Source of the DNA: a virus
Length of the DNA: 23,188 bases
IMG/VR virus record: IMGVR_UViG_3300020172_003865
Coordinates: 1 to 23,188 of that record
Reading direction: 5' to 3' (one strand)
Under the pieces are notes generated by a model. The model made no database searches. It was given only the letters and a program-made list of their open reading frames with translations, and was not told where the DNA came from. This document shows, piece after piece, positions 1 through 17,763 of this stretch. Position numbers and translations under genes: made by a program. The first letter of the stretch is position 1, and every line of letters begins with the position of its first letter.

Positions 1-60
1 GAAGATGAAGATGGAGATGAAGGAAACTATAATGACTACGAAGATGGAACAGACACCTGA
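1..60 (+). CDS. C-terminal end of an unidentified protein with an acidic tail (partial)
   Basis: Frame 1 is open from the window edge to a TGA at 58-60. It encodes 19 residues, EDEDGDEGNYNDYEDGTDT, of which 10 are Asp or Glu and none is basic. Such tails occur on phage single-stranded DNA-binding proteins and some other replication proteins, which would suit the neighbourhood. However, the end lacks the hydrophobic tip typical of bacterial SSB, so the identity is only a guess. The frame overlaps the start of the thymidylate synthase gene by 29 nt if that gene starts at 32, a spacing common elsewhere in this window. The rest of the gene lies outside the window. Confidence 0.5.
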   Translation, partial: EDEDGDEGNYNDYEDGTDT

Positions 61-751
61 ATCGATAGATGTAATAAAAGTTTTAGAAAATGGTTATGTT
101 AGATTAGTTGATTATATGGGTTCAGATCTTTCTGTAGCAAACGCAGCAAGAGCTTCTTTTGCCAAAGAATCTACAGAAATGACAACTGCCGACGCTAGAT
201 TAATCGAATTTTTAGCTAGAGAAAATCATATGTCACCTTTTCGGCACGCTTTTCTTACATTTGAATTTAAAGCCCCACTTATGGTAGCTAGACAGCATTG
301 GAAGTATGTAGTCGGATCAGATCATACAATGGACTCATGGAATGAATCTAGTCGTAGATATATTACTATGGATCCTGAATTTTACATTCCAGACAAAGAC
401 AGTTGGAGACTTGCTCCCGATAATCGGAAGCAGGGCTCTGGTGGTCCAATAGATCCATGGACAGGTTCACTGCTAACTCAAGAACTTGTAGATTATATTA
501 AGCAGGGCGAGGCACTTTATGCAATGGCCATGGAAACTGGAGTAGCACCAGAGCAAGCTAGATTGTTCTTGCCAGCTTACGGCATGCATGTGATCTATAG
601 GTGGTCTTGCAGTCTTCAGTCATTAGCCCTGTTCTTACAACAAAGACTAGAAGAAGACGCGCAAAAAGAAATACAACTATATGCCAAAGCAGTAATGGAT
701 TTATCTATTGATAAATTTCCAGTATCGCTAACTCTACTATTGAAGAAGTAA
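32..751 (+). CDS. thyX: Flavin-dependent thymidylate synthase ThyX
   Basis: ThyX makes dTMP from dUMP using FAD, NADPH and methylene-tetrahydrofolate, here feeding phage DNA synthesis. The 239-residue protein fits the family length. Visible family features are VARQ near residue 85-88, NESSRRY at 104-110 and a C-terminal PEQARLFLP segment whose Arg177 matches the conserved substrate-binding arginine. It ends with a FLQQRLEEDAQKEI helix. The usual RHRxxS stretch is replaced by a longer HWKYVVGSDHTMDSW segment, so the fold call is firm but the active site is divergent. ATG at 5 is also open, but AAGGA at 20-24 sits 7 nt before ATG 32, and starting there reduces overlap with the upstream acidic-tail frame. 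dCMP deaminase, which supplies dUMP, lies just downstream. Confidence 0.92.
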   Translation: MTTKMEQTPESIDVIKVLENGYVRLVDYMGSDLSVANAARASFAKESTEMTTADARLIEFLARENHMSPFRHAFLTFEFKAPLMVARQHWKYVVGSDHTMDSWNESSRRYITMDPEFYIPDKDSWRLAPDNRKQGSGGPIDPWTGSLLTQELVDYIKQGEALYAMAMETGVAPEQARLFLPAYGMHVIYRWSCSLQSLALFLQQRLEEDAQKEIQLYAKAVMDLSIDKFPVSLTLLLKK

Positions 752-752
752 T

Positions 753-914
753 ATGGAAATTTTAAAGTTATTTACTTTTTCACTATTATTAAATTGGTGC
801 ATTTCAATTCAAATTTTAAATCAAACACTACCAAAAGGTAGACAAAAATACGCTGCCATTTTGTTATCGGTAATTTTTGGTTTATGTTCTGGATTAGTAA
901 TATTATGGATCTAA
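753..914 (+). CDS. Small membrane protein, two predicted transmembrane segments
   Basis: A 53-codon frame starts 1 nt after the thyX stop and ends at TAA 912-914, overlapping the dCMP deaminase start by 10 nt. It has two hydrophobic stretches, roughly residues 5-22 (LFTFSLLLNWCISIQIL) and 36-53 (ILLSVIFGLCSGLVILWI). They are joined by a short polar link with KGRQKY, suggesting a hairpin in the inner membrane with a positively charged cytoplasmic loop. No family was recognised. Size and topology would fit a holin-like or superinfection-exclusion protein, but nothing specific supports either, and no lysin is nearby. The tight packing between two certain genes is the main evidence that it is real. 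Confidence 0.65.
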   Translation: MEILKLFTFSLLLNWCISIQILNQTLPKGRQKYAAILLSVIFGLCSGLVILWI

Positions 915-1372
915 AGAAAAAAGATATTCAGTATATACAAATGTGTATATCTATGTCAGAAATTTTCTCAACCTGCTCTAAAAGAAAATACGCCGCGATA
1001 CTTGTCGATGAATATGGCCATATTGTTGGAGTAGGATATAACGGTGGGCCAAAAAATATGGTACACTGTAGTGATGGAGGATGTCCAAGAGTTACTGATA
1101 ATTCACCAAATGGATCTATATATGACAATTGTATAGCAATCCACGCAGAAGCGAATGCATTCCTACATTCGGATTATTCAGCTAGACCAAAAAAAATATA
1201 TATAAATGGCCCCCCGTGCTTTTCTTGCGCTAAGCTAATAGCTAATTCAACAGTAGAAAAAATCTATTATATTAAAGATAATAATTATTTAGATTGGGAA
1301 AAAGTAAAAAGTTTTCTAGTTGAAAACTCAAAACAAGTGATAGAAGTGACAAATGCCAGCATCAAAGCTTAA
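905..1372 (+). CDS. Deoxycytidylate (dCMP) deaminase
   Basis: This zinc enzyme turns dCMP into dUMP, the substrate of the ThyX encoded just upstream. In the 155-residue product the zinc and catalytic site is complete: HAE at residues 80-82 and PPCFSC at 103-108, with Cys105 and Cys108 as ligands. The N-terminal half carries the typical SxCxKRKYAAILVD strand and GYNGGP loop. The Cys/His-rich stretch around 54-60 (HCSDGGC) matches the extra loop of phage and eukaryotic dCMP deaminases. An upstream in-frame ATG at 884 would add seven residues inside the small membrane gene. ATG 905 is preferred because it gives the family's usual N-terminus, although no strong ribosome-binding site precedes either. 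Confidence 0.92.
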   Translation: MDLKKKDIQYIQMCISMSEIFSTCSKRKYAAILVDEYGHIVGVGYNGGPKNMVHCSDGGCPRVTDNSPNGSIYDNCIAIHAEANAFLHSDYSARPKKIYINGPPCFSCAKLIANSTVEKIYYIKDNNYLDWEKVKSFLVENSKQVIEVTNASIKA

Positions 1373-1556
1373 TTATATTGTAGTCTACGAAGATCACAGC
1401 CAAGTATATGGTTGCTCTTCTAAGAAAATAGCAGATGAAAGTCCACCGCCAGAAGGTATAGATATTTCTAAAAAGAATATATTTTTTATAACTTTTGAGC
1501 CAGATACTAACAATATCTGTTTGCATAAAATAAATAAGGAAAAGGAAAATGAGTAA
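1353..1556 (+). CDS. Hypothetical protein, 67 aa
   Basis: Not recognised. The 67-residue product overlaps the end of the dCMP deaminase gene by 20 nt and the next gene by 8 nt, the same tight coupling seen across this operon. It has a short beta-strand-like start (LNYIVVYED), a proline-rich middle (ESPPPEG) and a second strand-like stretch (KNIFFITFEP) before a charged end. There is no signal peptide or membrane segment. The frame fills the only space between two supported genes, which favours its being real. Confidence 0.65.
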   Translation: MPASKLNYIVVYEDHSQVYGCSSKKIADESPPPEGIDISKKNIFFITFEPDTNNICLHKINKEKENE

Positions 1557-1779
1557 AGGTATTAAGAAAAAGCATATAGCAAAACTACTTCCAGGCCAAG
1601 TGTGCCTTGTTTTTGATAGCGATATTGCCCTACATATAGCAGAAACATATGACTTTGTTTCTATGGATGCCGAGGAAGAGTATATTCAATACTATAAAGA
1701 CGTAGCTGACTCAATTAGATTACAGGTTCAGGAAACTTATTATGATGGCGGAGAGGAAGAGTACGACGAATGGCAGTAA
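1549..1779 (+). CDS. Hypothetical acidic protein, 76 aa
   Basis: Not recognised. An AAGGAAAAGGA purine run just upstream of ATG 1549 is a good ribosome-binding site. The N-terminus is basic (SKGIKKKHIAK), followed by a hydrophobic strand LLPGQVCLVFDSD, then a long acidic region ending EEEYDEWQ. It is soluble by appearance. The gene overlaps both neighbours (8 nt upstream, 10 nt downstream), so it is probably translated by coupling. Confidence 0.7.
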   Translation: MSKGIKKKHIAKLLPGQVCLVFDSDIALHIAETYDFVSMDAEEEYIQYYKDVADSIRLQVQETYYDGGEEEYDEWQ

Positions 1780-2024
1780 ATAATACTATTAAAAAAGTAA
1801 TTATTACTTCTTTAGTTATAGGTTTTGTATCTATTAAATTTATGTCTAATAAATCTATTAAAGAAAAAATTACTGGACCATCATTAGCCCAATATTTAAA
1901 TAGGCTTAAAGAATTTTATGATCATGAAATAATGGATTTAGTAGAAGATAAGTTTTTAACATTTGTTGATTTTGGAATTAGTCCAGAAGCAGCTTTCGAA
2001 ATCCTAATAGAAGAGGGTGTTTAA
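1770..2024 (+). CDS. Hypothetical membrane-anchored protein, 84 aa
   Basis: Not recognised. After a short basic start (NNTIKK) there is one hydrophobic stretch, about residues 10-25 (VIITSLVIGFVSIKF). A charged helical domain follows and ends in an acidic segment with the UBA-like pattern FGISPEAAFEIL. The layout suggests an N-terminal membrane anchor with the C-terminal domain in the cytoplasm. The start overlaps the preceding gene by 10 nt, and a GAGAGGAAGAG purine run at about 1751-1761 can serve as ribosome-binding site. Confidence 0.7.
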   Translation: MAVNNTIKKVIITSLVIGFVSIKFMSNKSIKEKITGPSLAQYLNRLKEFYDHEIMDLVEDKFLTFVDFGISPEAAFEILIEEGV

Positions 2025-2025
2025 T

Positions 2026-2817
2026 TTGATTGATATATGTATAATTAACTACAATACAAGACCACTGCTTAATAGATTATTAGATTGTCTACACAATGAC
2101 CTGCACACATCTCCTAAAAAATGGAGACTTTATATAGCAGATAATGGATCAATAGATGATAGTGTGGACTGGTTGAGATTTAATCAATCTAGATATCATA
2201 TAGATAAATTAAAATTAAATGATAACATTGGATACTCTGCAGCATGTAATCAATTGGCCGCACTTGGGGACTCGGATACTATTGCGCTTGTTAACGCTGA
2301 TATATGGGCTGATAGTAGATCTATATATGAGATAGATAAAATCTTTCAAGAGGATAAAAAAGTTCATATCCTTGGCCCAAAGCAAAGAGATGAAAATGGT
2401 TATATAACACACGCTGGAATAATTGGAACAAATACTCAGCCAAAGCACCGCGGCTGGAGAGAGCATGATCCTGAAGATCATCTATATAGAGATAGGGTTG
2501 ATTGCGTTACAGTATCTGGTTCAGCTTATTTTGTGCGCAGAGATGTTTGGAATGCACTATCAAATGACTTGGAATATAAGGAAATGTTTCCAGATTCTAC
2601 GGGAGCCTTCCTACCTACACCTCACTATTATGAGGAAACATGGTGCTCTTATTTTGCTAGACATAGAGGCTATAATGTTGCTTACGATGGCACTGTATCA
2701 ATAGGACATAGTTGGCATAAGTCTTCTCCAGTTGGAGGGGAAGCTGATAAAAAGTTTGCAATAAGTAGAGAAATATTTAGAAAAGCATGTGACACTATAG
2801 GAATAGAAAGAGATTGA
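2026..2817 (+). CDS. GT2-family glycosyltransferase
   Basis: This is a cytoplasmic GT-A fold transferase that moves a sugar from a nucleotide-sugar donor; donor and acceptor are unknown. The 263-residue product opens with IDICIINYNTRPLL, the usual first strand. It has the donor-binding ADNGSIDDS (residues 38-46), NDNIGYSAACNQ (65-76) and a metal-site stretch VNADIW (89-94) with NAD in place of a classic DxD. A later SGSAYFVRRDVW segment is also typical of rhamnosyl-transferase-like members. GTG 2017 is open in frame, but GAGGG at 2013-2017 is spaced 8 nt from TTG 2026, and that start gives the family's normal N-terminus. Phage enzymes of this type may decorate DNA, capsid or host surface. Confidence 0.85.
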   Translation: MIDICIINYNTRPLLNRLLDCLHNDLHTSPKKWRLYIADNGSIDDSVDWLRFNQSRYHIDKLKLNDNIGYSAACNQLAALGDSDTIALVNADIWADSRSIYEIDKIFQEDKKVHILGPKQRDENGYITHAGIIGTNTQPKHRGWREHDPEDHLYRDRVDCVTVSGSAYFVRRDVWNALSNDLEYKEMFPDSTGAFLPTPHYYEETWCSYFARHRGYNVAYDGTVSIGHSWHKSSPVGGEADKKFAISREIFRKACDTIGIERD

Positions 2818-2818
2818 T

Positions 2819-3217
2819 ATGACAGATAAACTAAACCCTTGGATCTATAACGCAGAGGTTAAGAAAACAATTGATGGCGATACTTTTGATATTGTTATTG
2901 ATTTAGGTTTTGATACCCTAAAGAGAGGCAGAGTTCGTCTTTATGGTGTAAATACTCCTGAGAGTCGCACAACTAATCTTGAAGAAAAGAAAATGGGATT
3001 GGCAGCAAAAGAGTTTACTGACCAGTGGCTCACAGCCGCTAACCATAAAGTTAAGATAGAAACAATTATTGATAAGAACGAAAAGTACGGAAGAGTTCTA
3101 GCAAGAGTGTGGAATGAGGCTGGAGAGTGTCTAAATGATGCTATAATAGCGTCTGGTCTTGCCAGAGAATACTTTGGCGTAGGCGACAAAACATTCACCG
3201 AATTTAAAAAGGATTGA
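2819..3217 (+). CDS. Staphylococcal-nuclease-like (SNase) nuclease
   Basis: This is an OB-fold, calcium-dependent nuclease family that cuts DNA or RNA. The 132-residue protein is a single SNase domain with catalytic elements in order: TIDGDTF (residues 17-23), RVRLYGVNTPES (38-49, with the conserved Arg40 and Glu48) and YGRVLARV (90-97, the second catalytic Arg92). The metal-ligand Asp of the usual GIDTPE is Asn45, a substitution worth noting. There is no signal peptide, so it should act inside the cell, for example on host nucleic acid or in recombination. It starts 1 nt after the glycosyltransferase stop and is the last gene before a transcription break. Confidence 0.88.
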   Translation: MTDKLNPWIYNAEVKKTIDGDTFDIVIDLGFDTLKRGRVRLYGVNTPESRTTNLEEKKMGLAAKEFTDQWLTAANHKVKIETIIDKNEKYGRVLARVWNEAGECLNDAIIASGLAREYFGVGDKTFTEFKKD

Positions 3218-3233
3218 ATTTTCTAGTCTAGTG

Positions 3234-3262
3234 TTGCAATTCTTAAAGTATTGTGATACTAT
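3234..3262 (+). promoter_or_regulatory. Candidate promoter for the AIPR-like gene
   Basis: TTGCAA at 3234-3239 and TACTAT at 3257-3262 are separated by 17 nt. An overlapping extended -10 reading, TGTGATACT at 3252-3260, is also possible. The site lies in the first real gap of the window (3218-3340), after a gene end and before a leader with two hairpins. Both elements deviate from consensus, so the exact site is uncertain. Confidence 0.45.
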
Positions 3263-3270
3263 TATAACCA

Positions 3271-3318
3271 TGAGTTTTTCAACAGAAAATCTCATTTAAA
3301 TCGGCTACAAAAGTAGCC
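3271..3318 (+). promoter_or_regulatory. Two tandem hairpins in the AIPR-gene leader
   Basis: Hairpin 1 pairs TGAGTTTTTC (3271-3280) with GAAAATCTCA (3285-3294), with one mismatch and loop AACA. Hairpin 2 pairs GGCTAC (3303-3308) with GTAGCC (3313-3318) perfectly, with loop AAAA. The ribosome-binding site AAGGAG (3327-3332) follows 8 nt later and the ATG is at 3341. Hairpin 1 also lies inside a 9-codon frame (MSFSTENLI, ATG 3270 to TAA 3299) that could be a leader peptide. Neither hairpin has a following T-tract, so they look like RNA regulatory or stability elements rather than terminators. Confidence 0.5.
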
Positions 3319-3340
3319 CTAACATTAAGGAGACATAAAC

Positions 3341-4606
3341 ATGTCAGAAAATAATAATATCCATGCAATTAAATTTTATAGACACAATTCTATATCAAAT
3401 CCTATTCATGATGAAGAAATAGGTCAAGATATTAAAATTCACAGACTAACGGTAGAGATTAGAAATATCCCGTTAGGAATGTCTAATCACAACAATGCGC
3501 GTGAAGCAAAATTAAATAAAACTTTTCATAAAGAAATAAAAAATTCTTTAGTTAATTCTGAGTATTCTGATTTTACTCCTGGACTTTTTAATTTAAGAAA
3601 CAGTGGAATTGTAATAGTCGCAGAGACAGCTCACGTATCAGAAAATAATATTTTAGTTGTTGATTTTGGAACAAAGGGTTCAATCATAGATGGTGGTCAT
3701 ACCTATAAAATTATATCTTCTATTATAGAAGACTACAATGCCAACGCGATAGATTCTCATATGCCAGATGAGTATGTGCAAATAGAAATAATTACTGGAT
3801 TGAATAAAAAATTTTATTCAGAAATTACTGAAGCTAGAAATACATCACAAAAACACTTAGAAATGTCTTTTGAGTCTCAAAAGGGAAATTTTGAGTGGCT
3901 TAAAAAGGCATTAGATGGAAAACCAGGTCTTCCTGATTTCTCAGAAAAAATTGCATGGTACCAAAATGCCGGCACTGAAGATGGAACATCTTATCCTGTA
4001 GACGCAGCTTATATACTTAAGGTTTTAACTACTTGCGATATTATTGAGTGGCCCAACGGTGGATCTCATCCTATTGTTGCGTATAACAGTAAAGAAAAAG
4101 CAGTAATAAGACATAAGGATAACAAGCAAAACTTTGTCGCAATGCAAGATGTTGTTTTAGATATTTGCAGATTACACGATATCTTAATTGCAAGATCACT
4201 AAAATGGTATAATAAAGGAACTATCTATAAAATATGGGATTCTAAAAAAACAAACGCAGACAAATTAATTTTTTTAAGTGGAACCGATAAACAATCAGTT
4301 GTACTATCTACTAAAATTTTAGCAGAGGCTTTTGCTTATCCAATGTTAGCTGCAATGAGACAATTTTTTGAAGTAATTGATACTAATGAAGGACAAAAAA
4401 TTGTTTGGAGAAACGGTTACTCTTTTTCAAAAGTAGAAATAATGCTTGAAGAAGGTTTAGGAGAGGCATTGGCTACTGTTGCATATGAAGAAATGGAAGG
4501 TCTCGCTGGAGACAAAACGTCTATTAATCAATTATGTAAAGACAAGTCAATTTGGGGATCGATGTATGCTAGAACTGCTGATTTCATAAGAGACTATAAA
4601 AAATAG
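3341..4606 (+). CDS. AIPR-like (abortive infection phage resistance family) protein
   Basis: The 421-residue product resembles AIPR-family proteins, known from bacterial abortive-infection loci and also present in phages; their biochemical activity is not established. The supporting region is residues 80-125. PGLFNLRNSGIVIVAET corresponds to the family's LFxxNNGI strand, and GSIIDGGHTYKII corresponds to its IVNGGQT-like motif, here with D-G-G-H-T. The rest is mixed alpha/beta without a membrane segment or signal peptide. AAGGAG lies 8 nt before the ATG. The gene is isolated between its own promoter region and leader and a downstream terminator, unlike its operon-packed neighbours. That is the layout of a moron or independently timed early gene. 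A role against host defences or rival phages is inference. A DndB-like assignment is possible because its DGQHR motif is similar. Confidence 0.65.
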   Translation: MSENNNIHAIKFYRHNSISNPIHDEEIGQDIKIHRLTVEIRNIPLGMSNHNNAREAKLNKTFHKEIKNSLVNSEYSDFTPGLFNLRNSGIVIVAETAHVSENNILVVDFGTKGSIIDGGHTYKIISSIIEDYNANAIDSHMPDEYVQIEIITGLNKKFYSEITEARNTSQKHLEMSFESQKGNFEWLKKALDGKPGLPDFSEKIAWYQNAGTEDGTSYPVDAAYILKVLTTCDIIEWPNGGSHPIVAYNSKEKAVIRHKDNKQNFVAMQDVVLDICRLHDILIARSLKWYNKGTIYKIWDSKKTNADKLIFLSGTDKQSVVLSTKILAEAFAYPMLAAMRQFFEVIDTNEGQKIVWRNGYSFSKVEIMLEEGLGEALATVAYEEMEGLAGDKTSINQLCKDKSIWGSMYARTADFIRDYKK

Positions 4607-4612
4607 CATTAC

Positions 4613-4655
4613 AAAAACAGCACCCTTGCACAACTGTGTAGGGGTACTGTTTTTT
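4613..4655. terminator. Intrinsic terminator after the AIPR-like gene
   Basis: AAAAACAG (4613-4620) pairs with CTGTTTTT (4647-4654), and inside it ACCC pairs with GGGT after one mismatch; CACA/TGTG can close the loop. The stem runs directly into a T-tract on the + strand, and its A-rich 5' side could also terminate minus-strand transcripts. It begins 6 nt after the AIPR stop codon, and the next gene starts 31 nt or less downstream. Confidence 0.8.
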
Positions 4656-4686
4656 AACTTTGAAATGGAAGATAAATACAACTAAA

Positions 4687-5076
4687 ATGGAATTTGAAAT
4701 ACTACCAGCAGAATATATTGGCGAAGCAGCTCACGATGAAAGTGGTTTTTTGACCATAGGTTGTGGAGAAAAAATAGTTAAGATACATTTAACTAAAAAC
4801 ACATTACCGGGGTGGTCTAATCGTGGGTCTGTATCCGTCTATGTTAGACGTTTCTCTACGGATTTATCTGTAGCAGAAATACACATTGCCCAGCATGATG
4901 GATTAAGTCAAGAAGAGCTAGACTACGAGAATGAACAAGCTGGAATATATACACTTGGTCCTAAAGAATATTGGAGAGCTAAAATGGTGGGCAAGTATAC
5001 TTACGGCCTTGATTCACACTTAATGACTGATGAGGAATTCGAAAAAGATTGGAATGAAATAGAGGAGGATCTTTAG
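4687..5076 (+). CDS. Hypothetical protein, 129 aa
   Basis: Not recognised. The product has a beta-rich first half (FLTIGCGEKIVKIHL, GSVSVYVRRFS, VAEIHIAQHD) and an acidic, tyrosine- and tryptophan-containing second half ending DWNEIEEDL. It appears soluble. TTG 4660 is open in frame and would add nine residues, but it lies 5 nt after the terminator and has no ribosome-binding site. ATG 4687 is the working start, with GGAAGA about 14 nt upstream. The gene ends 1 nt into the next one, with which it is clearly co-translated. Confidence 0.65.
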   Translation: MEFEILPAEYIGEAAHDESGFLTIGCGEKIVKIHLTKNTLPGWSNRGSVSVYVRRFSTDLSVAEIHIAQHDGLSQEELDYENEQAGIYTLGPKEYWRAKMVGKYTYGLDSHLMTDEEFEKDWNEIEEDL

Positions 5077-5495
5077 TGCAAACATTTCTACCGTATGCAG
5101 ATTTTCAAAAATCTGTAGAAGTATTAGACTATCGTAGATTAGGAAAACAACGTGTTGAAACATTTCAAGTTTTAAACATCTTACTTGATCGCACTCCAAC
5201 GAAAGGTTGGCGAAACCATCCAGTCACGCTAATGTGGACTGGGTATGAATCAGCTTTGAAGTTGTATCAAAATATGACTATCCGTGAATGGGTTCGTAGA
5301 GGATATAATAATAATATGCAATACGAAGAAATAGAACCTGGAACTACTATAATGCCAGCTTGGTTTGGCAATGAAGAATTCCATAGATCACATAGATCAA
5401 ATCTTCTTCGTAAAGACTTTGGATATTATTCACAGTTTTTTGATGAACCAAATGACCTAGAATACTATTGGCCAGGAGTAGCATATGCCGCTTAA
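5076..5495 (+). CDS. MSMEG_6728-type protein, putative pyrimidine-dimer DNA glycosylase-like
   Basis: The protein begins MQTFLPYADFQKSVEVLDYR and then has RRLGKQRVE and WRNHPVTLMW. It continues with EWVRRGY, PAWFG and a FHRSHRSNLLRKD block. This order matches the actinobacterial MSMEG_6728 family, which is grouped with pyrimidine-dimer excision enzymes; the family assignment is from memory. The role would be repair of UV damage, but the reaction is unproven for this subfamily. GTG 5076 overlaps the preceding TAG by one base and is preceded by a strong AGAGGAGGA site (5061-5069), which fixes the start. The end overlaps the next gene by 11 nt. Confidence 0.75.
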   Translation: MQTFLPYADFQKSVEVLDYRRLGKQRVETFQVLNILLDRTPTKGWRNHPVTLMWTGYESALKLYQNMTIREWVRRGYNNNMQYEEIEPGTTIMPAWFGNEEFHRSHRSNLLRKDFGYYSQFFDEPNDLEYYWPGVAYAA

Positions 5496-5889
5496 AGTAT
5501 TTCTTTCAGGAGCAATTGAGGGTGTTGAAGACTACGGTCGTTTTTGGCGTAAGTCTGCTACCAAGGCACTGCATCTTGCAGGTTATGATGTATTAGATCC
5601 AATGACTATTACTGGTAGGGATTATGAAACTCCTGAAGAAATAGTTGAAAAAAATCTATTCATGCAACGCAGAGCGGATATCATTCTGGTAGAATACATG
5701 TTACAAGATCGCGCATATATAGGTACTGATTTTGAACTAGCTTGGGCAAAGTTCAATGATCAGCCAGCAATTGTTTTTTGCTGTGACTCTAATAAGAACA
5801 GAGTTTATCTAAAATATATGGCAACAAAGCTTGCACCAACAATGCAAGATGCGATAGAATATATCGCAATTAATTATCCATCAATATAA
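5485..5889 (+). CDS. Nucleoside 2-deoxyribosyltransferase-like protein
   Basis: The 134-residue protein has the Rossmann-like pattern of the nucleoside 2-deoxyribosyltransferase family. VFLSGAIEG (residues 5-13) is at the N-terminus, ADIILVEYM at 64-72, and GTDFELAWA at 80-88 contains Glu84, the equivalent of the catalytic glutamate. Members swap bases on deoxynucleosides or cleave nucleoside phosphates. In phages they are thought to salvage nucleotides or take part in base modification, and in some defence systems the fold acts on NAD or nucleotides. Here the nucleotide-metabolism context favours salvage. The gene overlaps its upstream neighbour by 11 nt. Confidence 0.78.
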   Translation: MPLKVFLSGAIEGVEDYGRFWRKSATKALHLAGYDVLDPMTITGRDYETPEEIVEKNLFMQRRADIILVEYMLQDRAYIGTDFELAWAKFNDQPAIVFCCDSNKNRVYLKYMATKLAPTMQDAIEYIAINYPSI

Positions 5890-5903
5890 CGAAAGGCAAT
5901 ACA

Positions 5904-6095
5904 ATGTCAGATAACAAGTTCAAGTATTTCACCGTAACAACAACTGCAGTTGTTAAGGCAAATAATAAGACAGACGCGGAGAAGATTGCAATGAGCAATC
6001 GTCGCCCAGTTGGCACTCTTGGTGAGTTGATCATTAAAGATGTTGAGATTGAGCGAATCTCGGCTGCAGAGGCTCATGAGCAGCTCGTAGGCTGA
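5904..6095 (+). CDS. Hypothetical small protein, 63 aa
   Basis: Not recognised. GAAAGG lies about 9 nt before ATG 5904. The predicted fold is a small alpha/beta unit: strand KYFTVTTTAVVKA, helix NKTDAEKIAMSN, strand LIIKDVEIERIS, then an acidic helical end. The pattern of a strand carrying repeated T/V followed by a DAEKIA helix is common in small phage proteins of unknown role. Its base composition is less AT-rich than the neighbours, which may reflect high expression or separate origin. It is the last gene before a hairpin. Confidence 0.75.
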   Translation: MSDNKFKYFTVTTTAVVKANNKTDAEKIAMSNRRPVGTLGELIIKDVEIERISAAEAHEQLVG

Positions 6096-6130
6096 ACAAC
6101 TCATTAAAGTCTAGTACTTGTTGGTTAGGG

Positions 6131-6156
6131 AGAAGGGGGGAGTAATCCCCCTTTCT
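6131..6156 (+). terminator. G-rich hairpin, probable terminator or attenuator
   Basis: AGAAGGGGGG (6131-6140) pairs with CCCCCTTTCT (6147-6156) around the loop AGTAAT, a 10-bp stem including one G-T pair. It is followed by TGCCTTT rather than a clean T-run, so termination may be partial. It sits between the small gene ending at 6095 and the glycosyltransferase starting at 6181. Confidence 0.55.
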
Positions 6157-6180
6157 GCCTTTAAAAAAGATTGGAATTAT

Positions 6181-6873
6181 ATGATATTCGCACAAATGAT
6201 TGGGCGCAATGAATCTTCTAGATTTTTAGAAGAAGTTTTAGAAAGATTATCTACTCAAGTAGATAAAATTATTTTTACCGATGACTGTTCTACCGATAAT
6301 ACTCCAGAGATAGCTGCAAAATATGCAGAAGTTTTTCAGACACCGGAGCAGTTGTTTACTCAAAATGAAGGTCAACTAAGAGCATTTGCCTGGAGTAATT
6401 TAGAAAAATATGCCAGCGTAGGTGACTGGGTTATTGCAATTGATTGTGATGAAAAGTTATTTCATACTAATGACTTACCAATACGTGATGTTCTAGCAAC
6501 TTCACCTTTTGATGTAGTCAATGTTCGCTTTTATCACATGTGGAATGAAACTCAATATAGAGTTGATAAACTTTGGACACCAAATAATAGTAGTAGAATT
6601 TTTAGATTTCTTGACAACGGCGCGTTTGTAAATAGAAAATTAGCATGTGGCTCAGAACCTTCTTATGTTAGGGAATGGATCAACAAAAGAAACTATTGGT
6701 TAAACAGCAGTCTAATCATGCAACATCTTGGCTATATTAATGATCTTGATAAAAAGATAAAGCACGCTAGATATTCAGAGTTAGATGGTGGAGAGTTTCA
6801 TCAAATCGAGCACATAAATTCTATTGTCGACGAAAATCCAGTCTTAATTGACTGGGGTAATTTTGGAATCTGA
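6181..6873 (+). CDS. GT2-family glycosyltransferase, second copy type
   Basis: The 230-residue protein opens MIFAQMIGRNESSRFLEEVL, the typical first strand of GT2 enzymes of the SPBc2-type subgroup. It has a donor-binding FTDDCSTDNT (residues 32-41), a QNEGQLRAFAW segment and a classic metal-binding DCD at 88-90 (AIDCDEKL). Donor and acceptor are unknown; it acts in the cytoplasm. TTG 6118 is open in frame but would place the N-terminus across the hairpin at 6131-6156, so ATG 6181 is preferred. It is not a close copy of the transferase at 2026: the first 40 residues differ throughout and its DxD motif is canonical. The next gene may also be a glycosyltransferase. Confidence 0.83.
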   Translation: MIFAQMIGRNESSRFLEEVLERLSTQVDKIIFTDDCSTDNTPEIAAKYAEVFQTPEQLFTQNEGQLRAFAWSNLEKYASVGDWVIAIDCDEKLFHTNDLPIRDVLATSPFDVVNVRFYHMWNETQYRVDKLWTPNNSSRIFRFLDNGAFVNRKLACGSEPSYVREWINKRNYWLNSSLIMQHLGYINDLDKKIKHARYSELDGGEFHQIEHINSIVDENPVLIDWGNFGI

Positions 6874-6884
6874 TTGGAAATAAA

Positions 6885-7520
6885 ATGACTATACTAAATG
6901 TAACTGAATCAACTACTAAATTAAGTTTAGCAATGAATAAAAGAGAAAAGTTTGCCTATGTTAATATTCCAAAGTCATCAATCGTTGCTTTAAATAAAAA
7001 CAGTGAAAATCCTTTTCCTCCACACTTTGCTAAAGGTGTTCTTAATTCATTAAAAAATACTGATAAAAATGTAATGAAAGCCATTTCAAACTCCCTTATC
7101 CCATATATTGAATCTGGCAAACACTTTAAAATAGGCTTAAATAAAAATTCAGAATATGTTTATTCTAATATATTTGAATATTATTTACTGAACAATAAAG
7201 AAATTTATGATACTCTTATAAATTACTTTATAAGAAATACACCAAAATTAGTTGTGTCTTTTCATGATAAAAAAATAGTTCAAAGAGTTTTTGGATTCAA
7301 CTGTCATGTTATCAATGTACCATTTCATAACTACTACGACAAACTAGATAATGTATACGCTCAGATATCTGAATTTAATGAAGGTGTAGATTACTGCCTG
7401 TTTGATTGTGGAGTATTAGGTCTGGCTTTGGCGTCCAAAATTTGGGAGAATTTAGATATGTCCATAATAGATACAGGTAAAGTCGTTAGTTTAACAAAGG
7501 CAATGGCGCAACAAAACTAA
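6885..7520 (+). CDS. Uncharacterised protein, possible GT-D-fold glycosyltransferase
   Basis: The 211-residue protein has a lysine/asparagine-rich helical first half, then a Rossmann-like second half. The C-terminal stretch at residues 168-200 reads EGVDYCLFDCGVLGLALASK and then IDTGKV. It resembles the end of GT-D-fold glycosyltransferases (DUF1792/SP_1767-like), where a DxG loop, a hydrophobic helix and an IDxG strand close the sugar-nucleotide site. The N-terminal DxE-type site of that family could not be identified, so the call is tentative. Location 11 nt after a GT2 glycosyltransferase supports a shared glycosylation role. GGAAAT upstream of ATG 6885 is the likely ribosome-binding site. 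Confidence 0.45.
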   Translation: MTILNVTESTTKLSLAMNKREKFAYVNIPKSSIVALNKNSENPFPPHFAKGVLNSLKNTDKNVMKAISNSLIPYIESGKHFKIGLNKNSEYVYSNIFEYYLLNNKEIYDTLINYFIRNTPKLVVSFHDKKIVQRVFGFNCHVINVPFHNYYDKLDNVYAQISEFNEGVDYCLFDCGVLGLALASKIWENLDMSIIDTGKVVSLTKAMAQQN

Positions 7521-7522
7521 AT

Positions 7523-8170
7523 ATGTCTAAAAGTAAAAAGGACATCAGTGATGATGATATTGAGTTTCTAGTAGATCTTCTACTAGAAACATCAATGTCT
7601 ATCAGTCAAATAGCGAATGAACTAGGCGTATCTATTTCAGATGTTAATTCTAGAATAAATCAACTTGGCCTGTCTTGGTTGAAGCAATCTAGAAAAAAAA
7701 TGTCTAGAGGGCAAACTGCACTTACTGCTGTAATGCAAAAACTTCTTCCTAGTGAAGAAATTATTAATGAATTTCATATTGGCGACAAAATGAGATTAGA
7801 TGTGTATTGCCCTAGCTACGCCATAGCTGCAGAATATCACGGTCGTCAACATTTTTATTATACTTCTAGATTTTTTCCTTCTCGCTACGAGTTTGAAGAA
7901 GCTCAAAAAAGAGATATTAAAAAAGCTGAATGGTGTAAAGAAAATGGAATAGCACTTATTGTATTTCGCTACAATGATTCATTAACTGAAACAAGCGTGT
8001 ATAATAGAATGCTTGAAGCAATTAGATCTACGCCGATGCTAGAAAAAAATAGCGTTAAAAAATCTATTACATCTTCAAAGTATTATCAGGAAATGAAAAA
8101 GAAAAATTCTCAATATAAAAAAGATCTTTATAGAAAAATAAAAGGCAAAAAAATTGATGACACTAGATGA
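7523..8170 (+). CDS. VSR/DUF559-like endonuclease with N-terminal helix-turn-helix
   Basis: Residues 10-50 form a DNA-binding helix-turn-helix (MSISQIANELGVSISDVNSR). Residues 62-155 form a nuclease core of the very-short-patch-repair/DUF559 branch of the PD-(D/E)XK fold. MRLDVYCP supplies Asp93, AAEYHGRQHF supplies Glu104 and a His/Gln site, and KRDIKKAEWCKENGIALIVF is the closing helix and strand. The C-terminus is lysine-rich and likely binds DNA. The architecture is that of free-standing phage endonucleases of the homing (EDxHD-like) kind, or of a nicking enzyme for replication or recombination. It overlaps the helicase gene by 14 nt, so a role in replication is also plausible. Confidence 0.7.
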   Translation: MSKSKKDISDDDIEFLVDLLLETSMSISQIANELGVSISDVNSRINQLGLSWLKQSRKKMSRGQTALTAVMQKLLPSEEIINEFHIGDKMRLDVYCPSYAIAAEYHGRQHFYYTSRFFPSRYEFEEAQKRDIKKAEWCKENGIALIVFRYNDSLTETSVYNRMLEAIRSTPMLEKNSVKKSITSSKYYQEMKKKNSQYKKDLYRKIKGKKIDDTR

Positions 8171-9617
8171 AGTAGAGCAGTTCCAGGAAACACCACTTGA
8201 ATATCAAGCTTTCTCACTATGCCTAAAGCAGGATGGGGCAATTGAATACTTTAGTGAAAATCTCCCACAAGAAATTGTTGGCTTGATACATGGAGAAAAA
8301 GGTGTATATGAATTGTATCAAGCTTTTTTAGCTTTTTATAAATCTACTAATCTACAAAAGGTAGATCCAATTGCCTTTAGATCATGGTTATCAGAAGAAA
8401 CAGATATATATGATGCACTAGGCGGTGCCGCTGGAGTATCTGTTATGTTGGATTATATATTAAGTGTTAACTCAACAGATAAAGAATCAATTGTAGAACT
8501 TCTTAAACATAAAGCTAATAAAAGAAAGCAAATTAATTATCTACAAGAATTACAAATTCTAATTAACAAAAAAGGTAATAAATCTCCAGAAGATATAGAT
8601 CGTATAAGTCTTTTAACATTATCAATAAAAGATTTAGAAAGTTCAATTAAATATAATCCGTTCGAGAAACTGACAACAGCAGATGACATTATAGGGAGAG
8701 CCGATAGTCTCTTAAATGTACCTGACTTTATGCCAACGCAATTTAAATCGCTCAATAGAGCAATGGGCTATACTGATGACGGTGGATTCTTTAAAGGCGC
8801 TGTACATGCAATAATTGCACCCTCAGGTAAAGGTAAAAGTACGTTTGCTAAATGTCTAGCTAATCATTGGTTAGATACTGGCTATAGAGTCTTGTACGTA
8901 AACTTTGAAGAAGCATTGGGTCACTGGGAAAGAGTATTGATGACTCAAATAATAGGTAAAAACGTATACGCAGAAGTCGATAAATGGACTCAGGATCAAA
9001 AAAAAGAATATATCAAAATATTTACTAATAAATTAAAGCAGTGGGGAGATCGTCTCATGGTTAGACACGATCCAGAAACTCCGTATTTTGAAGACTTAGA
9101 AATTTGGTTAAGAGATTTAATTGGCCATAATGACAAACTTCCAGATGTAGTTATTATAGACACTATTCAATCAATGTTCACTAGGGGTAGCGGCAAAGGA
9201 AAGCCACGCTGGGGTGAATTTGAAGAAATGATGGTTAGGTTAGAAAAGCTAGCTAGAGATATGAATTGTGTTTTAATAATTACAGCACAAGAAAATTCAA
9301 ATAGAATGAAGGAAAAGCGTGAAGTTGTTCAACAATCTGATACTGGTGGTTCACTAGCTATTCAGCAAAAGTGTGCAGTCACAATATTTATAACAGAAAA
9401 AAGACTAGCAACAAATGACGACACCGAAGATGAAAATGTTATGCAGCTTCAAATACCTAAAAATAGAATTACTGGTTCAGCATTTTTGTATGATCCTCCT
9501 TTGGTTAGGTACAATGATGAAAAGAAAATATATGAACAATATGAAATAGCTGATGATTCAATGTATGAAAAAGATTCTGATCTTCAGCAATTATTAAATG
9601 GAGAGGGTTTTGATTGA
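8157..9617 (+). CDS. dnaB: Replicative DNA helicase, DnaB family
   Basis: This hexameric 5'-3' helicase unwinds the phage replication fork. In the 486-residue product the first about 160 residues match the DnaB N-terminal helical domain and linker. The RecA-like motor follows: Walker A APSGKGKST (residues 221-229), a NFEE motif at 249-252, Walker B VVIIDTIQS (331-339, Asp335), an IITAQEN sensor and a KNRITG segment near the end corresponding to the arginine-finger region. The C-terminus is acidic. TTG 8154 and ATG 8157 are adjacent; ATG 8157 is chosen, with AAAGG upstream. It lies in one operon with primase and polymerase, with 1-nt overlap to the next gene. Confidence 0.93.
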   Translation: MTLDEVEQFQETPLEYQAFSLCLKQDGAIEYFSENLPQEIVGLIHGEKGVYELYQAFLAFYKSTNLQKVDPIAFRSWLSEETDIYDALGGAAGVSVMLDYILSVNSTDKESIVELLKHKANKRKQINYLQELQILINKKGNKSPEDIDRISLLTLSIKDLESSIKYNPFEKLTTADDIIGRADSLLNVPDFMPTQFKSLNRAMGYTDDGGFFKGAVHAIIAPSGKGKSTFAKCLANHWLDTGYRVLYVNFEEALGHWERVLMTQIIGKNVYAEVDKWTQDQKKEYIKIFTNKLKQWGDRLMVRHDPETPYFEDLEIWLRDLIGHNDKLPDVVIIDTIQSMFTRGSGKGKPRWGEFEEMMVRLEKLARDMNCVLIITAQENSNRMKEKREVVQQSDTGGSLAIQQKCAVTIFITEKRLATNDDTEDENVMQLQIPKNRITGSAFLYDPPLVRYNDEKKIYEQYEIADDSMYEKDSDLQQLLNGEGFD

Positions 9618-10393
9618 TGTTAAAACTAACGGTAGCTGCAATAAAAGATTTTCAAACATGTGAAAGATTATATGACTATAGATATAAACAAGAGCTTTCT
9701 GAAAAAATTTATTCTAGAGATATATACACTAATAAATTTGAAATAACAATTAAAAATATTCTGTATTATTTTTGGTTTAAAAAACAAGCTGGTATTACCC
9801 CCTCGTATGCATCCTTATTAAATAGGTGGGAAAAATTATGGTTTCCAAAAAATACAGACCATTACGATATAATAACTGAACAGCATGAAAGTATGTATGG
9901 CAATGTAGCTAACTTAACCTCTAAAGCCGCAGCACTGCTTTTAAAATTTTATGAAACATACTCTGATACCAAATTTATACCAATATCAATTAGCGACGAC
10001 TACTTTGCTTTTTCGGGTTCAGATTCAAAAATTGAAGATAAATTTGATTTAATTTATTCTAATGGAGAAAATAATTTTGTTATTAAATTTTTATTTAATT
10101 ATAAAACAAATCATAGACATATGTATCAAGTTGATTTTACTTCAATGTATCTTGGTTTTAAAAATAAACACCCAGGTAGATTAAGTAAAACAAAATTTGG
10201 GTATATCGATCTAGTATCTAATAGCCATCAATTTATTGAATATGAAATAACACAAGAAGACGTTGACGCTTTTGAGTACTGGTGTGATACAATATCTTCT
10301 AAAGAACTGTTTGTTCCAAGAAGAGGTTTAATTTCCTATTGCAAGAAATGCCCCTTTGACGAACCATGCTCAAAATGGACAGGATGGAAATGA
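9617..10393 (+). CDS. RecB/Cas4-like protein with apparently degenerate nuclease site
   Basis: The 258-residue protein has the outline of the PD-(D/E)XK family of Cas4, AddB and RecB. It opens LTVAAIKDFQTCERLYDYRY, with Cys15. A C-terminal cysteine triplet at Cys242, Cys245 and Cys251 completes a possible iron-sulphur cluster. In the core, Asp144 (DKFDLIY) is present, but the DYK triad is NYK at 161-163, and the usual upstream His of the GxxxH motif is absent. It is therefore probably a non-catalytic partner, or binds DNA only. An intact relative lies at 16691-17485. ATG 9617 overlaps the helicase stop by one base, with GAGAGGG 9 nt upstream. Confidence 0.7.
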   Translation: MLKLTVAAIKDFQTCERLYDYRYKQELSEKIYSRDIYTNKFEITIKNILYYFWFKKQAGITPSYASLLNRWEKLWFPKNTDHYDIITEQHESMYGNVANLTSKAAALLLKFYETYSDTKFIPISISDDYFAFSGSDSKIEDKFDLIYSNGENNFVIKFLFNYKTNHRHMYQVDFTSMYLGFKNKHPGRLSKTKFGYIDLVSNSHQFIEYEITQEDVDAFEYWCDTISSKELFVPRRGLISYCKKCPFDEPCSKWTGWK

Positions 10394-11058
10394 ATAAGAA
10401 AAGTATATTAGATGATATCCTCGAAGAGGATAAAAGTGTATACACACAACAGGAAGACGATTATCTAGAAACTCTCTTAGATGAAATAAATCTTATTTCA
10501 GATGAAGTAATTAAGTCTTTTGTTAGATCGGTATTACTGCAGGCATCTGATTTTTGGATAGTTCCATCAAGTTTTTCTGGAAAATATCACCCACCGGATG
10601 AGCACGGGCACGGCGGTAATGTATTACATACAAAAAGAGTTACAAGAATAGCTGATACTATGTGCGATTCATACAGCGTCTCTCAAGAGGAGCGAGACGT
10701 TATATTAGCAGCATGTCTTTTGCACGATATAACTAAAGGGGTAAATCACTCTGATGACACCTTCCAATATGACCCGATGCATCCGTATACGGTAAATAAA
10801 TTTGTATCCAATGTAATAAGCCATGATAAAAAATATGCAAACGATGCGCACTCATCGTCTTTGTTTATGCAAGAAGAAACAATACAATCTATTCTGAGAC
10901 TAGTGAGATGCCATCTTGGACCGTGGTCCCCTATTCCAGAAACTTATCCAATTACTTACATGGATTATATAGTTCATGTAGCGGATAATATAGCCTCTAA
11001 GTTACATACATACATAGATGATAGCGGACTTATAAATGATAAATGGACAAGACAATAA
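10390..11058 (+). CDS. HD-domain phosphohydrolase
   Basis: The 222-residue protein is a metal-dependent HD hydrolase. The metal ligands visible are His80 (GHGGNVLHTKRV), His112-Asp113 (LLHDITKG), His131 and His175 (RCHLGPW) and Asp199 (VHVADNIAS). The preceding HGHGGNVLHT segment is typical of HD enzymes acting on nucleotides or small phosphoesters. Substrate is unknown: dNTPs, host alarmones or cyclic nucleotides are all possible, and the setting among replication genes favours a nucleotide. The first about 45 residues are acidic and helical. ATG 10384 is also open, but ATG 10390 overlaps the upstream TGA by 4 nt in the operon's usual style. Confidence 0.83.
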   Translation: MNKKSILDDILEEDKSVYTQQEDDYLETLLDEINLISDEVIKSFVRSVLLQASDFWIVPSSFSGKYHPPDEHGHGGNVLHTKRVTRIADTMCDSYSVSQEERDVILAACLLHDITKGVNHSDDTFQYDPMHPYTVNKFVSNVISHDKKYANDAHSSSLFMQEETIQSILRLVRCHLGPWSPIPETYPITYMDYIVHVADNIASKLHTYIDDSGLINDKWTRQ

Positions 11059-11218
11059 CATAGAAGAAAGAATATCTAAAAGAATATATCTTTTTTCCAA
11101 TCTAGAAGATATAATAGAAGAGTCAGTCTATTATAGGACTCACTCAGATAATTTTTGTTATCCAAAAATATCTATCCTAAATATAAAACATGATGATTGT
11201 AGGGTCAAAATTATATGA
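11036..11218 (+). CDS. Hypothetical small protein, 60 aa
   Basis: Not recognised. The frame begins inside the last 23 nt of the HD gene and ends in an ATGA overlap with the primase start. It thus exactly bridges the two certain genes, which is the main support. The product is mixed charged with a helical centre (SNLEDIIEESVYYRT) and one Cys near each of residues 41 and 55. No membrane segment is seen. Confidence 0.55.
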   Translation: MINGQDNNIEERISKRIYLFSNLEDIIEESVYYRTHSDNFCYPKISILNIKHDDCRVKII

Positions 11219-12417
11219 AAATTTGTGAAAGATCAAATAAGTTTTTATCTTCTTGGAAATATGTAGAAATAGCTAAATATGTTCCCTCCCTTAATAGAGT
11301 TATTAGAATTAAATCTGGAGATAAAACTACATTTATAACTGATGAAGATATTCCTTCTTTTAGAGAAGACAATGATAATACTGGATTATATACATCTATA
11401 TGGAAATATAATTATCCAGATATTGAAAAATCAACAAGATTAAGTTCATTATATTTTGATCTAGATAATACTAATGGTGATATATCATTAGAGGAAACCA
11501 TTAGATTAAAAGAATATTTATTGGAATACATTCCTGAAGAATCTATTATTGTTTATTTTACTGGCAAAAAAGGTTTTCATATCGAGTGCGAAGCTGTCGC
11601 CCTGGGGATTAATCCATCTAATAAACTGCCAGAAATTTTTAGGCACATTGCAAATAAAGTAAATGATAAATTAAATCTTACATCTTTAGATTTTAGTGTT
11701 TACGATCCAAGAAGAATGTGGCGCCTTGAGGGTACAATGCATCAAGATACATCGCTTTATAAGAATAAAATTAATGCGGATCTACTATATACAAATATGG
11801 ATACCATTAAGCAATATTGCATAAATAGATTTAGTAATATTGTAATTGATCAATCATTCAGCTCTAAAGCAAATGAGTGGTTTAGAGATTTTACATATGA
11901 TTTAGAAATTGAAAAAGAAAAATCAAAAGATTTTATGTCTTACTTCAATAAATATGGTTCATCTGCGTTTAAAAAGTTAGATGAATCAGAAAGAGAATTT
12001 ACAAAAGAAAAACTACTAACAGGTTGCACCGCCGTACAAAGATTATATGATCAAGCAAAAGAGAAAAAATTTCTTGAACATGAAGCTAGATTATTCCTAT
12101 GTTCCATACTTACTTACAGTGAAGATTCAATAAAATTTCTTCATGAAATACTTAGTAATTGCGACGATTATAATTGGGAAAAATCTAATAGCCACATAAG
12201 AGATTGGGTCAAAAGAAGAGAACTCGGAATTGGCGGTAGACCATATACATGCGAGAGAGCAAATGCCGTTGGCGTTGGTTGTGGCGAGTGTTCTTTGGAG
12301 CAAAAAAAGAAATGGATTAAAGTTGGAGATAAATATATAGAAACAGAAGAAAAGTCTTCGCCATCTCCAGTTAGATTTGCATATAAGCTAAAAAATAAAG
12401 GAGGTGAAAATGTCTAA
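11215..12417 (+). CDS. DNA primase, archaeo-eukaryotic type with PriL-like Cys domain
   Basis: This enzyme makes the primers for the phage polymerase. The 400-residue protein carries the AEP catalytic motifs: FDLD (81-84, metal site), TGKKGFH (116-122, nucleotide site) and the DPRRMWRLEGTMH stretch (164-176) with the third acidic site and basic residues. After a linker, residues 265-365 form a helical domain with Cys271, Cys346, Cys356 and Cys359. The spacing (GC...YTC...CGEC) recalls the iron-sulphur domain of large primase subunits. Both primase functions may therefore sit in one chain. It does not resemble bacterial DnaG, although the helicase and polymerase around it are bacterial-type. 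The start overlaps the previous stop (ATGA). Confidence 0.85.
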   Translation: MKICERSNKFLSSWKYVEIAKYVPSLNRVIRIKSGDKTTFITDEDIPSFREDNDNTGLYTSIWKYNYPDIEKSTRLSSLYFDLDNTNGDISLEETIRLKEYLLEYIPEESIIVYFTGKKGFHIECEAVALGINPSNKLPEIFRHIANKVNDKLNLTSLDFSVYDPRRMWRLEGTMHQDTSLYKNKINADLLYTNMDTIKQYCINRFSNIVIDQSFSSKANEWFRDFTYDLEIEKEKSKDFMSYFNKYGSSAFKKLDESEREFTKEKLLTGCTAVQRLYDQAKEKKFLEHEARLFLCSILTYSEDSIKFLHEILSNCDDYNWEKSNSHIRDWVKRRELGIGGRPYTCERANAVGVGCGECSLEQKKKWIKVGDKYIETEEKSSPSPVRFAYKLKNKGGENV

Positions 12418-12616
12418 TATACAAAATCCAGATGATGTTATTGGAGTGTGCTCTGAGTGTAAGTCAGATCAGCCAGATCAATACATGGAAAGAAGTCCTT
12501 TTGCTCAGGAAGGTAAGCCTGTTCCTTGTAAGTATTGTGGCGGAGTTGTAATTATTACATATAGAGAAACAAGAGATAGTGCTCTTGATGGCTCAGATAG
12601 AAGTAGAGGAATTTAG
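12410..12616 (+). CDS. Small zinc-ribbon protein
   Basis: The 68-residue product has two CxxC pairs, CSEC (about residues 14-17) and CKYC (about 40-43), separated by a polar loop: a single zinc ribbon. Such proteins bind nucleic acid or partner proteins. AAAGGAGGTG at 12397-12406, almost a perfect ribosome-binding site, stands 3 nt from ATG 12410 and suggests strong translation. GTG 12404 in the same frame lies inside that site and is rejected. It sits between primase and polymerase and ends 1 nt into the polymerase gene, so a replisome-accessory role is possible but unproven. Confidence 0.75.
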   Translation: MSNIQNPDDVIGVCSECKSDQPDQYMERSPFAQEGKPVPCKYCGGVVIITYRETRDSALDGSDRSRGI

Positions 12617-15600
12617 TGAAAAATTGGACAAATCTCCACAACCATACAGTCTATTCTATGCTCGATGGACATGGAAGAATTGAGGAGTATTTAGACAGAG
12701 CTAGATCTCTTGGAATGAAAGGTCTAGCTACAACTGATCATGGCAATATACACTCGTGGCTTGATTTCTATGATGCAGGTCAAGCTACGGGTGTAAAGCC
12801 AATTCTTGGTTCTGAATTTTATCAAGCTAGAAAAACCAGATTTGATAAAGACGAGGAAGAAAGATCTGGTCCGGCCAAAAATGAATGGGAACAAAGAGGG
12901 CCATACCATATAACAATTCTAGCTAAAAATAATGTTGGCTATAAAAATATTATTAAAATGTCATCAAGATCATTTCTTGAAGGATATTACGTTAAGCCTA
13001 GAATCGATCACGATCTTATATCTCAACACTCTGATGGAATCATTGTGCTATCTGGCTGCCTAAATAGTGAAGTGTCTCAGGCTTTACTAAGAAATGATTT
13101 TGACTACGCCCTTAACTCAGCTAAGAAAATGCAGGATATTGTTGGTAGAGAAAATTATTTCATAGAAGTTCAAGACCATGGTCTTTCTGAACAACGCAAA
13201 GTATTTAACCAATTAGTTGAAATAGCTTCCATTATTGGAGCCAAAGTAGTCCCAAGTGGAGACTGCCACTACGTACATCAGAATGACGCTCGCGCCCATG
13301 ATATCATGCTATGTGTTGCTACAAACTGTAATATTCATACTCCAAATAGATTTTCTTTTAGTGGTGATGAATTCTATCTTCAGTCATATGATGAGATGGA
13401 AAGAAAATTTAATCCTGATTGGCTAAAGAATACCATGGACGTATGTGATATGGTTGATATTAATTTAAATTTTGGAAACATATATTTTCCAGATTTTCCA
13501 ATTCCAACAAAAGAAACATCTAATGATTACTTCGAAAGATTAGCTTGGAGTGGCTTAAAGGAAAGATATGGCGATCCACTTCCGCAGCATATTATAGATA
13601 GAGCTAATCATGAAATACGTGTAGTAAAAGATATGGGATTTCCAGAATATTTCCTAGTTGTTTCAGATCTAGTCAATTGGGCTAAAAATAATAATGTTAG
13701 AGTTGGGTGGGGAAGAGGTTCTGCTGCTGGCAGTATATTATCTTACGCATTTAAAATCACTAACCTAGATCCAATTAAGTTTGGTTTAATGTTTGAAAGA
13801 TTCCTTGTCGAGGGAAGAAAGTCAATGCCAGATATAGATCTAGACTTTGACGATAGACATAGAGATGAAGTTATTAACTACGCTAGAAGTAAATATGGCG
13901 TAGATCATGTTGCACATATATGTACGTTTAATAAGACAGGAGCTCGTCAATCTATACGAGATGCTGCCAGAGCATTAGGTCATGATTTTGCAGCAGGGGA
14001 TACCGTAGCTAAACTTGTACCTCCGCCTATTTTGGGTATATCTAAAAATCTTTCTGAGTGCATGGAAGTTGCTGACTTCTCAGAATTATACAAAAAAGAT
14101 AATACAGCTAAAGAAATTGTAGACACTGCATTTGGGTTAGAAGGCCTTGTTCGGCAAACAGGAATTCATGCCGCTGGTGTAGTTATATCAAAAGGCCCAT
14201 TAACTGATTACTTACCAATTATGCAAAAGGGTGTAGATAATCCAATTGTAACTCAGTGGGATATGGGTCGAGTTGAACAATGTGGTCTACTAAAAATAGA
14301 CTTTCTTGGTTTAAGAAACCTAGGTGTCATTGATTCTTGTGTCAAGCTAATAGAGAAACATAAGGGAATATTAATTGATATTGATTTAATACCATTGGAT
14401 GATACTAAAACTTATGACGAATTATGTAGAGGTAATTGCGCTGGAGTATTCCAGCTTGAGTCATCATCTATGAGAGAAATGATGATCTCTTTGCAGCCAA
14501 GAAGTATAGAAGACATAATGGCTCTTATATCACTGCATAGACCTGGACCAATGGGTTCGGGAATGGATAAAGAGTATATAGATAGAAAACATGGTCGTAG
14601 TAGAATCAAATATGATGATCCTAAATTGGAATCTGTTTTAGCGCCATCTCTGGGTATTATGCTATATCAGGAAGATGTTCTTGGCGTAGCTAGAGAATTA
14701 GCTGGCTTTTCTTCAGCAGAAGCCGATGATTTACGTAAAGTTATAGGTAAAAAGTTAATGGATAAAATTGCTAAAATGCGCAGTAAATTTGTTGAAGGTT
14801 GTGTTGAATCTTCTCAGATATCTGAACAGTTAGCTAATAAAATTTTCTCAGACATTGAATACTTTGGCGGATACGGTTTTAACAGAGCGCATGCCGCCAG
14901 TTACGCAATGATCAGTTACGTAACAGCATATTTGAAGGCTAACTATACTGTTGAATATATGGCTGCACTTATGTCTTCTGTTGTTGGAAATAAAGATAAA
15001 CAATCATTTTATCTATCCGACTGTAGGAAGCTAGGCATATCAGTGCTACCACCTTCAGTAAATTATTCTGGATTTGACTTTGAGGTTATAGATGATTCTT
15101 CTATTGTTTTTGGACTATCAGCTGTTAACGGAATTGGGTCATCAATAGCAGACGCTATTGTTTCATCTAGAGATGAATTAAATCCGTATAAAAATTTGTC
15201 AGACTTTTTTAGGAGATGCGATCCTACAATTCTTAAGAAATCAACATTAGAACACCTAGCTATGGCTGGTGCACTAGACGAATTAATTGATGAATATAAA
15301 GTTGGATATAATAGATTAGAAGAATTATCTATTTTAGAAAAAGAAAAAGATGAACTTGGAATTTATGTTACCACTCATCCAGTCCTTGGTATTTGGGATA
15401 TTCTTTCTAAAAAAATAACATGTGAAATTATTGATTTGATTAATTACACTGTTGGATCTTCTGTAAAAATCGGTGGAATAATAACTGCAGTAAAGAAAAT
15501 CATGACCAAAAAAGGTCAGAAAATGTTTAAGATTACGATTGAGGATATATCTTCTGATATTGAAATAATAATCTTCCCTAACGCAGCCAAGTCTATTTCG

Positions 15601-16306: not shown

Positions 16307-16308
16307 AG

Positions 16309-16681: not shown

Positions 16682-16690
16682 GAGTATTTT

Positions 16691-17485: not shown

Positions 17486-17491
17486 ACAAAT

Positions 17492-17523: not shown

Positions 17524-17542
17524 ATTTTATTTTATATAAGAA

Positions 17543-17716: not shown

Positions 17717-17736
17717 TATATTTTCTTTCTTTTTAG

Positions 17737-17756: not shown

Positions 17757-17763
17757 GTTTGGT

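Follow-up and report, generated by a model that had tools for sequence, protein, structure and literature searches.

Why does a phage whose genes abut or overlap set one gene apart behind a leader and a terminator of its own, and what might that gene do? The window, a 23,188-bp virus record with a GC content of 33.5%, carries a replication and nucleotide-metabolism gene block, in which a reading frame for a protein of 421 residues is preceded by a 123-nt leader (positions 3218 to 3340). The original prediction read it as a stand-alone AIPR-like gene, a moron acting against host defense or rival phages, and was accurate as to the size of the gene, its leader, and the overlapping or abutting genes around it. 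The lineage is known only from environmental contigs, the records are fragments, and the nearest named phages were too remote to name a host.

Features of the AIPR locus in the window
Feature	Position	Strand	Evidence or remark
SNase (staphylococcal-nuclease-like gene), left flank	2819..3217	+	PF00565
Inserted block, absent from L002 and L005	3216..5074	+	blastn junction
Predicted AIPR promoter	3234..3262	+	TTG-N17-TAC[TA]AT kept in window, L070, L075, and L089
Leader hairpin I	3270..3295	+	begins ∼1 to 3 nt after predicted transcript start
Leader hairpin II, GGCTAC-AAAA-GTAGCC	3303..3318	+	fold prediction
Shine-Dalgarno AAGGAG	3327..3332	+	unpaired in predicted fold
AIPR-family protein, 421 aa, ATG start	3341..4606	+	PF10592
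D117-G-G-H-T-Y122 codons, clade core motif	3689..3706	+	19-homologue alignment
Predicted AIPR intrinsic terminator	4613..4654	+	starts 6 nt past stop
g9, 129-aa protein, second gene of insert	4687..5076	+	adjoins AIPR-like genes in relatives
PyrEx (pyrimidine-dimer DNA glycosylase), right flank	5076..5495	+	PF03013

Judged by profile and motif, the gene product is a genuine AIPR of the ∼400-aa "DGGHTY" clade. The predicted family assignment was borne out by Pfam (PF10592, E value of 9e-17, 62.1 bits against a cutoff of 25; residues 51 to 345 on profile positions 3 to 272) and by hhalign, which gave a whole-length profile match to cellular AIPRs of ∼400 aa (E value of 6e-43). With this family of AbiU1-type abortive-infection proteins, the window protein shares the DGGHTY and RN motifs. 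Across 8 phage and 11 cellular homologues, the core motif was well conserved (G118 in 19/19; G119 and H120 in 18/19; D117 in 17/19; Y122 in 16/19; T121 in 15/19), and R54, N87, G89-I90, N167, P334, R340, and W356 were also kept. The RxxxxH motif is a mark of HEPN domains, and no such pair was found among the columns conserved in 75% of the 19 homologues; an N-terminal HEPN domain has been claimed for AIPR (PMC3506569). PHROGs, PADLOC, and NCBIfam gave no match for the protein, and neither phmmer nor profile searching found a relative in the PDB. The AF2 model was poor (pLDDT of 65) and had no meaningful Foldseek match in the PDB; in a viral structure library, its first named match was an AIPR, followed by GmrSD-N and DndB at low TM scores.

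Published work places the N terminus of DndB in the AIPR family (PMC3506569) and assigns DndB to the ParB superfamily (PMC10853773). In the suggested profile check against DndB, hhalign set DGGHT of the AIPR on DGQHR of DndB, with the same motif order and register (an N-containing motif follows) and an E value of 0.002 versus 0.43 to 0.67 for controls, but the probability was 14%. The window AIPR reads DGGHT and contains no DGQHR pentapeptide, the Arg being replaced by Thr; in DndI, the Arg of DGQHR/DGQQR is essential for ATPase activity (PMC11662687). No dnd genes were recognized beside the window AIPR. On this profile evidence, which falls short of significance, kinship with DndB is suggestive.

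A search of genome contigs with an initial AIPR profile came back empty, and a broader profile found five relatives. In cells, DGGHTY AIPRs lie on plasmids and in defense or restriction-modification (RM) loci. On plasmids of Gram-positive bacteria, they stand beside a divergent HTH gene or a Z1-domain gene; others adjoin MT-A70, an N6/N4 methylase with a SMODS/OAS-type synthase and an AAA ATPase, or an Eco57I-type methylase with a BsuBI endonuclease. AbiU1/AIPR has been associated with RM (PMC3506569), and AIPR is included in mza-like systems (PMC9523054). In contrast, the window gene sits in a phage replication block beside g9 rather than in an RM operon, lacks an HTH or Z1 partner, and has its own predicted promoter with a hairpin leader.

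The candidate promoter combines a −35 element (TTGCAA, 3234 to 3239), a 17-nt spacer, and a −10 element (TACTAT, 3257 to 3262) preceded by TGA at 3254 to 3256, which makes an extended −10 (TG-A-TACTAT, 3254 to 3262). It scores under the default scanner's threshold, but it is probably more than chance, since three relatives (L070, L075, and L089) show TTG-N17-TAC[TA]AT at the corresponding position. The two leader hairpins fold at −17.3 kcal/mol (z −5.4), and none of 200 shuffles was equally stable. Compared with L070, the paired region of hairpin I is the same but for one A-U to G-U change, and hairpin II has two compensated base pairs, a count above slid controls and reached in 126 of 500 shuffles (two sequences only). 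All four loci have two leader hairpins; those of L075 and L089 lie at the same position and are unrelated in sequence to the window's. The terminator (−24.1 kcal/mol, z −5.3) ranks first in a terminator scan of bases 1 to 20000, and the three relatives each have a terminator of their own sequence after the AIPR gene. Thus, as read from these four loci, the promoter-hairpins-terminator layout is kept while its sequence diverges. The predicted promoter, hairpins, and terminator all held up. A further promoter candidate, TTGAAA-N17-TAAAAT at 4660 to 4688, was dropped because promoter-like 9-of-12 sites were no commoner than in shuffles.

Of the suggested RNA-level control, the hairpin form kept in four loci speaks weakly in favor, and the unpaired Shine-Dalgarno sequence speaks against it. 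An Rfam scan of the window matched no known RNA family and therefore no known riboswitch or thermometer. As the ribosome-binding site is not sequestered, we infer that the hairpins protect the 5' end or insulate the transcript rather than act as a switch; regulation has no better odds than 5'-end stability or insulation. The leader bears on one alternative role for the protein, as an autoregulator resembling DndB or a regulator of host takeover: a DNA-binding NTPase that would act on transcription, beginning with its own promoter and hairpin leader. The DGGHT/DGQHR register, the weak matches to DndB and GmrSD-N among viral models, and the conserved leader layout are consistent with it. The low hhalign probability, the variation of leader sequence among carriers (with hairpins less clear for the A88 and A92 AIPR types), and the absence of a recognized HTH from the AIPR make this role quite improbable.

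We then compared the locus with relatives, 80 of which were fetched with the helicase. Against L002, window positions 1 to 3215 (96.3% identity) and 5075 to 11356 (98.3%) aligned with sequence that is contiguous there (6919/6922), with nothing between. In both L002 and L005, the SNase gene runs directly into the PyrEx gene at the same junction; the 96 to 98% identity to the window was computed for L002, and L005 was judged by the junction. The predicted block, 3218 to 4655, is correct in holding the leader, AIPR gene, and terminator, and the suggested comparison found a whole block absent from related phages, but the missing and conserved unit extends over 3216 to 5074 and includes g9. The inserted unit is therefore two genes rather than one stand-alone gene, and within the phage lineage the AIPR gene always travels with g9. 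The order SNase-AIPR-g9-PyrEx also occurs in L070 and L075. The alignments show that the insert was gained or lost recently, with the AIPR gene between its own predicted promoter and terminator. Because of the clean empty sites (L002, L005, and L140, empty versus L141, in otherwise collinear phages) and the sequence-level promoter and terminator conserved in four loci, moron status, as proposed, is well supported. The insert resembles phage morons in promoter, terminator, and clean empty site; it differs from them in having a second gene after the terminator, in a phage not known to be temperate, and in the exchange of AIPR alleles ahead of a constant terminator-g9 segment.

The second gene, g9, may alternatively start at TTG 4660. 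It had no Pfam match, and its AF2 model (pLDDT of 65) gave weak matches, including OB-fold proteins (RPA and RuvA), none of them significant. It is present in 7/7 AIPR-carrying relatives, at two different junctions, and makes a concrete candidate partner of AIPR. A toxin-antitoxin test of the pair did not find obligate pairing: g9 also occurs without AIPR in unrelated phages (L084, L085, L093, and L094; in L085 and L093, PF10592 had no match anywhere in the record), and its role as an obligate AIPR antitoxin was rejected. In L093, a weak DUF6551-like DGQHR protein (E value of 0.014), Mom, and g9 stand in a row (4431 to 6324), the Mom DNA-modification gene matching PF25680 at 2e-31; this neighborhood may tie g9 to DNA modification. 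By inspection, L070 (6888 to 6920), L075 (6893 to 6925), L088, and L089 have a TGATATAAT-like extended −10 where g9 ends, immediately ahead of the following phage gene; it may serve as a promoter that restarts transcription past the terminator, and it has no counterpart in the window.

By gene order, the AIPR site is a hotspot. Besides the window, seven phage records carry an AIPR-like gene with g9, representing four AIPR types at two junctions, with identities to the window protein of 89/67%, 43%, ∼25%, and ∼21%. Among 50 whole records searched with PF10592, only L070, L075, and L089 matched; the L088 and L092 types score too low for this profile and were assigned by tblastn (9e-21 and 1e-8) and motif alignment. 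Of the first-set loci that include both site ends, 22 were empty, 9 held a C5-cytosine methylase in the gap from GT2a to SNase, 4 read GT2a-AIPRlike-g9-SNase, and 2 read SNase-AIPR-g9-PyrEx; in 6, SNase or PyrEx was missing. Another set, drawn from the sister group and with some contigs overlapping the first, was mostly empty, with six glycosyltransferase-like genes, two methylase matches, and the same AIPR carriers. Sister phages with the C5-cytosine methylase in this gap are L031, L034, L042, L061, and L185. A 301-aa glycosyltransferase-like gene lies in the GT2a-SNase gap of L189 to L194; the window itself has two glycosyltransferase-like genes within its replication block (2017 to 2817 and 6118 to 6873). 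Defense hotspots of P2/P4 phages and satellites, where AIPR is among the domains listed, likewise have conserved phage genes with variable conflict genes in the gaps (PMC9122126); the window phage is of a different lineage.

L141 is 96 to 97% identical to both L140 and L144 on both sides of the site; L140 has no AIPR, L141 has the 25% type, and L144 has the 43% type, the last two sharing 24% identity. Common sequence resumes at the AIPR stop in these phages, so the terminator and g9 are constant in this set, and GT2a was exchanged along with AIPR between L141 and L144. Between the window and L070, DNA identity is 90% in the AIPR gene and 65 to 78% in GT2a, SNase, leader, g9, PyrEx, and DnaB, which points to recent transfer. 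The alignments demonstrate that phages exchange AIPR alleles, with breakpoints close to the leader and to the AIPR stop/terminator. Such near-identical phages with one type, another, or none offer natural comparisons for AIPR. They also bear on the idea of a neutral or selfish passenger that spreads by being insulated and harmless, as its patchy presence and terminator would allow; motifs intact across 19 to 43% identity among the phage homologues, the repeated retention of the AIPR-g9 pair, and alleles swapped rather than decayed make this very improbable.

We consider it moderately probable that AIPR and g9 form a moron-type two-gene cassette, inserted in the replication/nucleotide-metabolism block, with AIPR a conflict effector blocking superinfecting phages or plasmids and g9 an accessory. 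The effector would have a ParB/Srx-like, NTP-handling core and would recognize DNA that is foreign or carries different modifications, or else some component of a phage. Owing to the terminator, AIPR could be expressed from its own promoter with no increase in the replication transcript; g9 would depend on read-through or a weak promoter and may modulate or neutralize AIPR on the carrier's behalf. Action against rivals or host defense, as originally proposed, is plausible from the kinship of the protein, the C5 methylases that share its hotspot, and the swapping of alleles, and is the likeliest reading. The Thr in place of the Arg essential in DndI, the occurrence of g9 without AIPR, the lack of any PADLOC, PHROGs, or NCBIfam match, and the poor AF2 model with no PDB match count against the cassette explanation as a whole.

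As C5 methylases occupy the same site, the main rival is counterdefense: AIPR would shield carrier DNA against restriction by the host or against nucleases that sense modification, a part that the methylase presumably plays in sister phages. Some ∼11 sister phages have the methylase there and none has both genes, AIPR-carrying records showed neither a C5 nor an N6/N4 methylase, and L093 has g9 beside Mom and the DUF6551-like protein. This mutual exclusion is, however, not significant at these numbers among fragmentary records, most sister phages have neither gene, and the cellular AIPR relatives are on the defense side. We regard counterdefense as rather unlikely, and action against superinfecting phages or plasmids as more likely than protection of the phage's own DNA. 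Returning to the cassette, a bolder version, which we hold to be unlikely, is an undescribed two-component system by which phages exclude other phages and in which the swapped AIPR would set specificity and the constant g9 and terminator would be the immunity or activation part.

Elsewhere in the window, at 17486 to 17820, a short minus-strand ORF (∼57 aa) is flanked by two hairpins, of which GCTACAACTTGCGTTGTAGC (17737 to 17756), in its leader, is similar to AIPR leader hairpin II. The window ends in a tandem repeat (22949 to 23188), where a minus-strand ORF reads PPIFLEPPIFLEPP.
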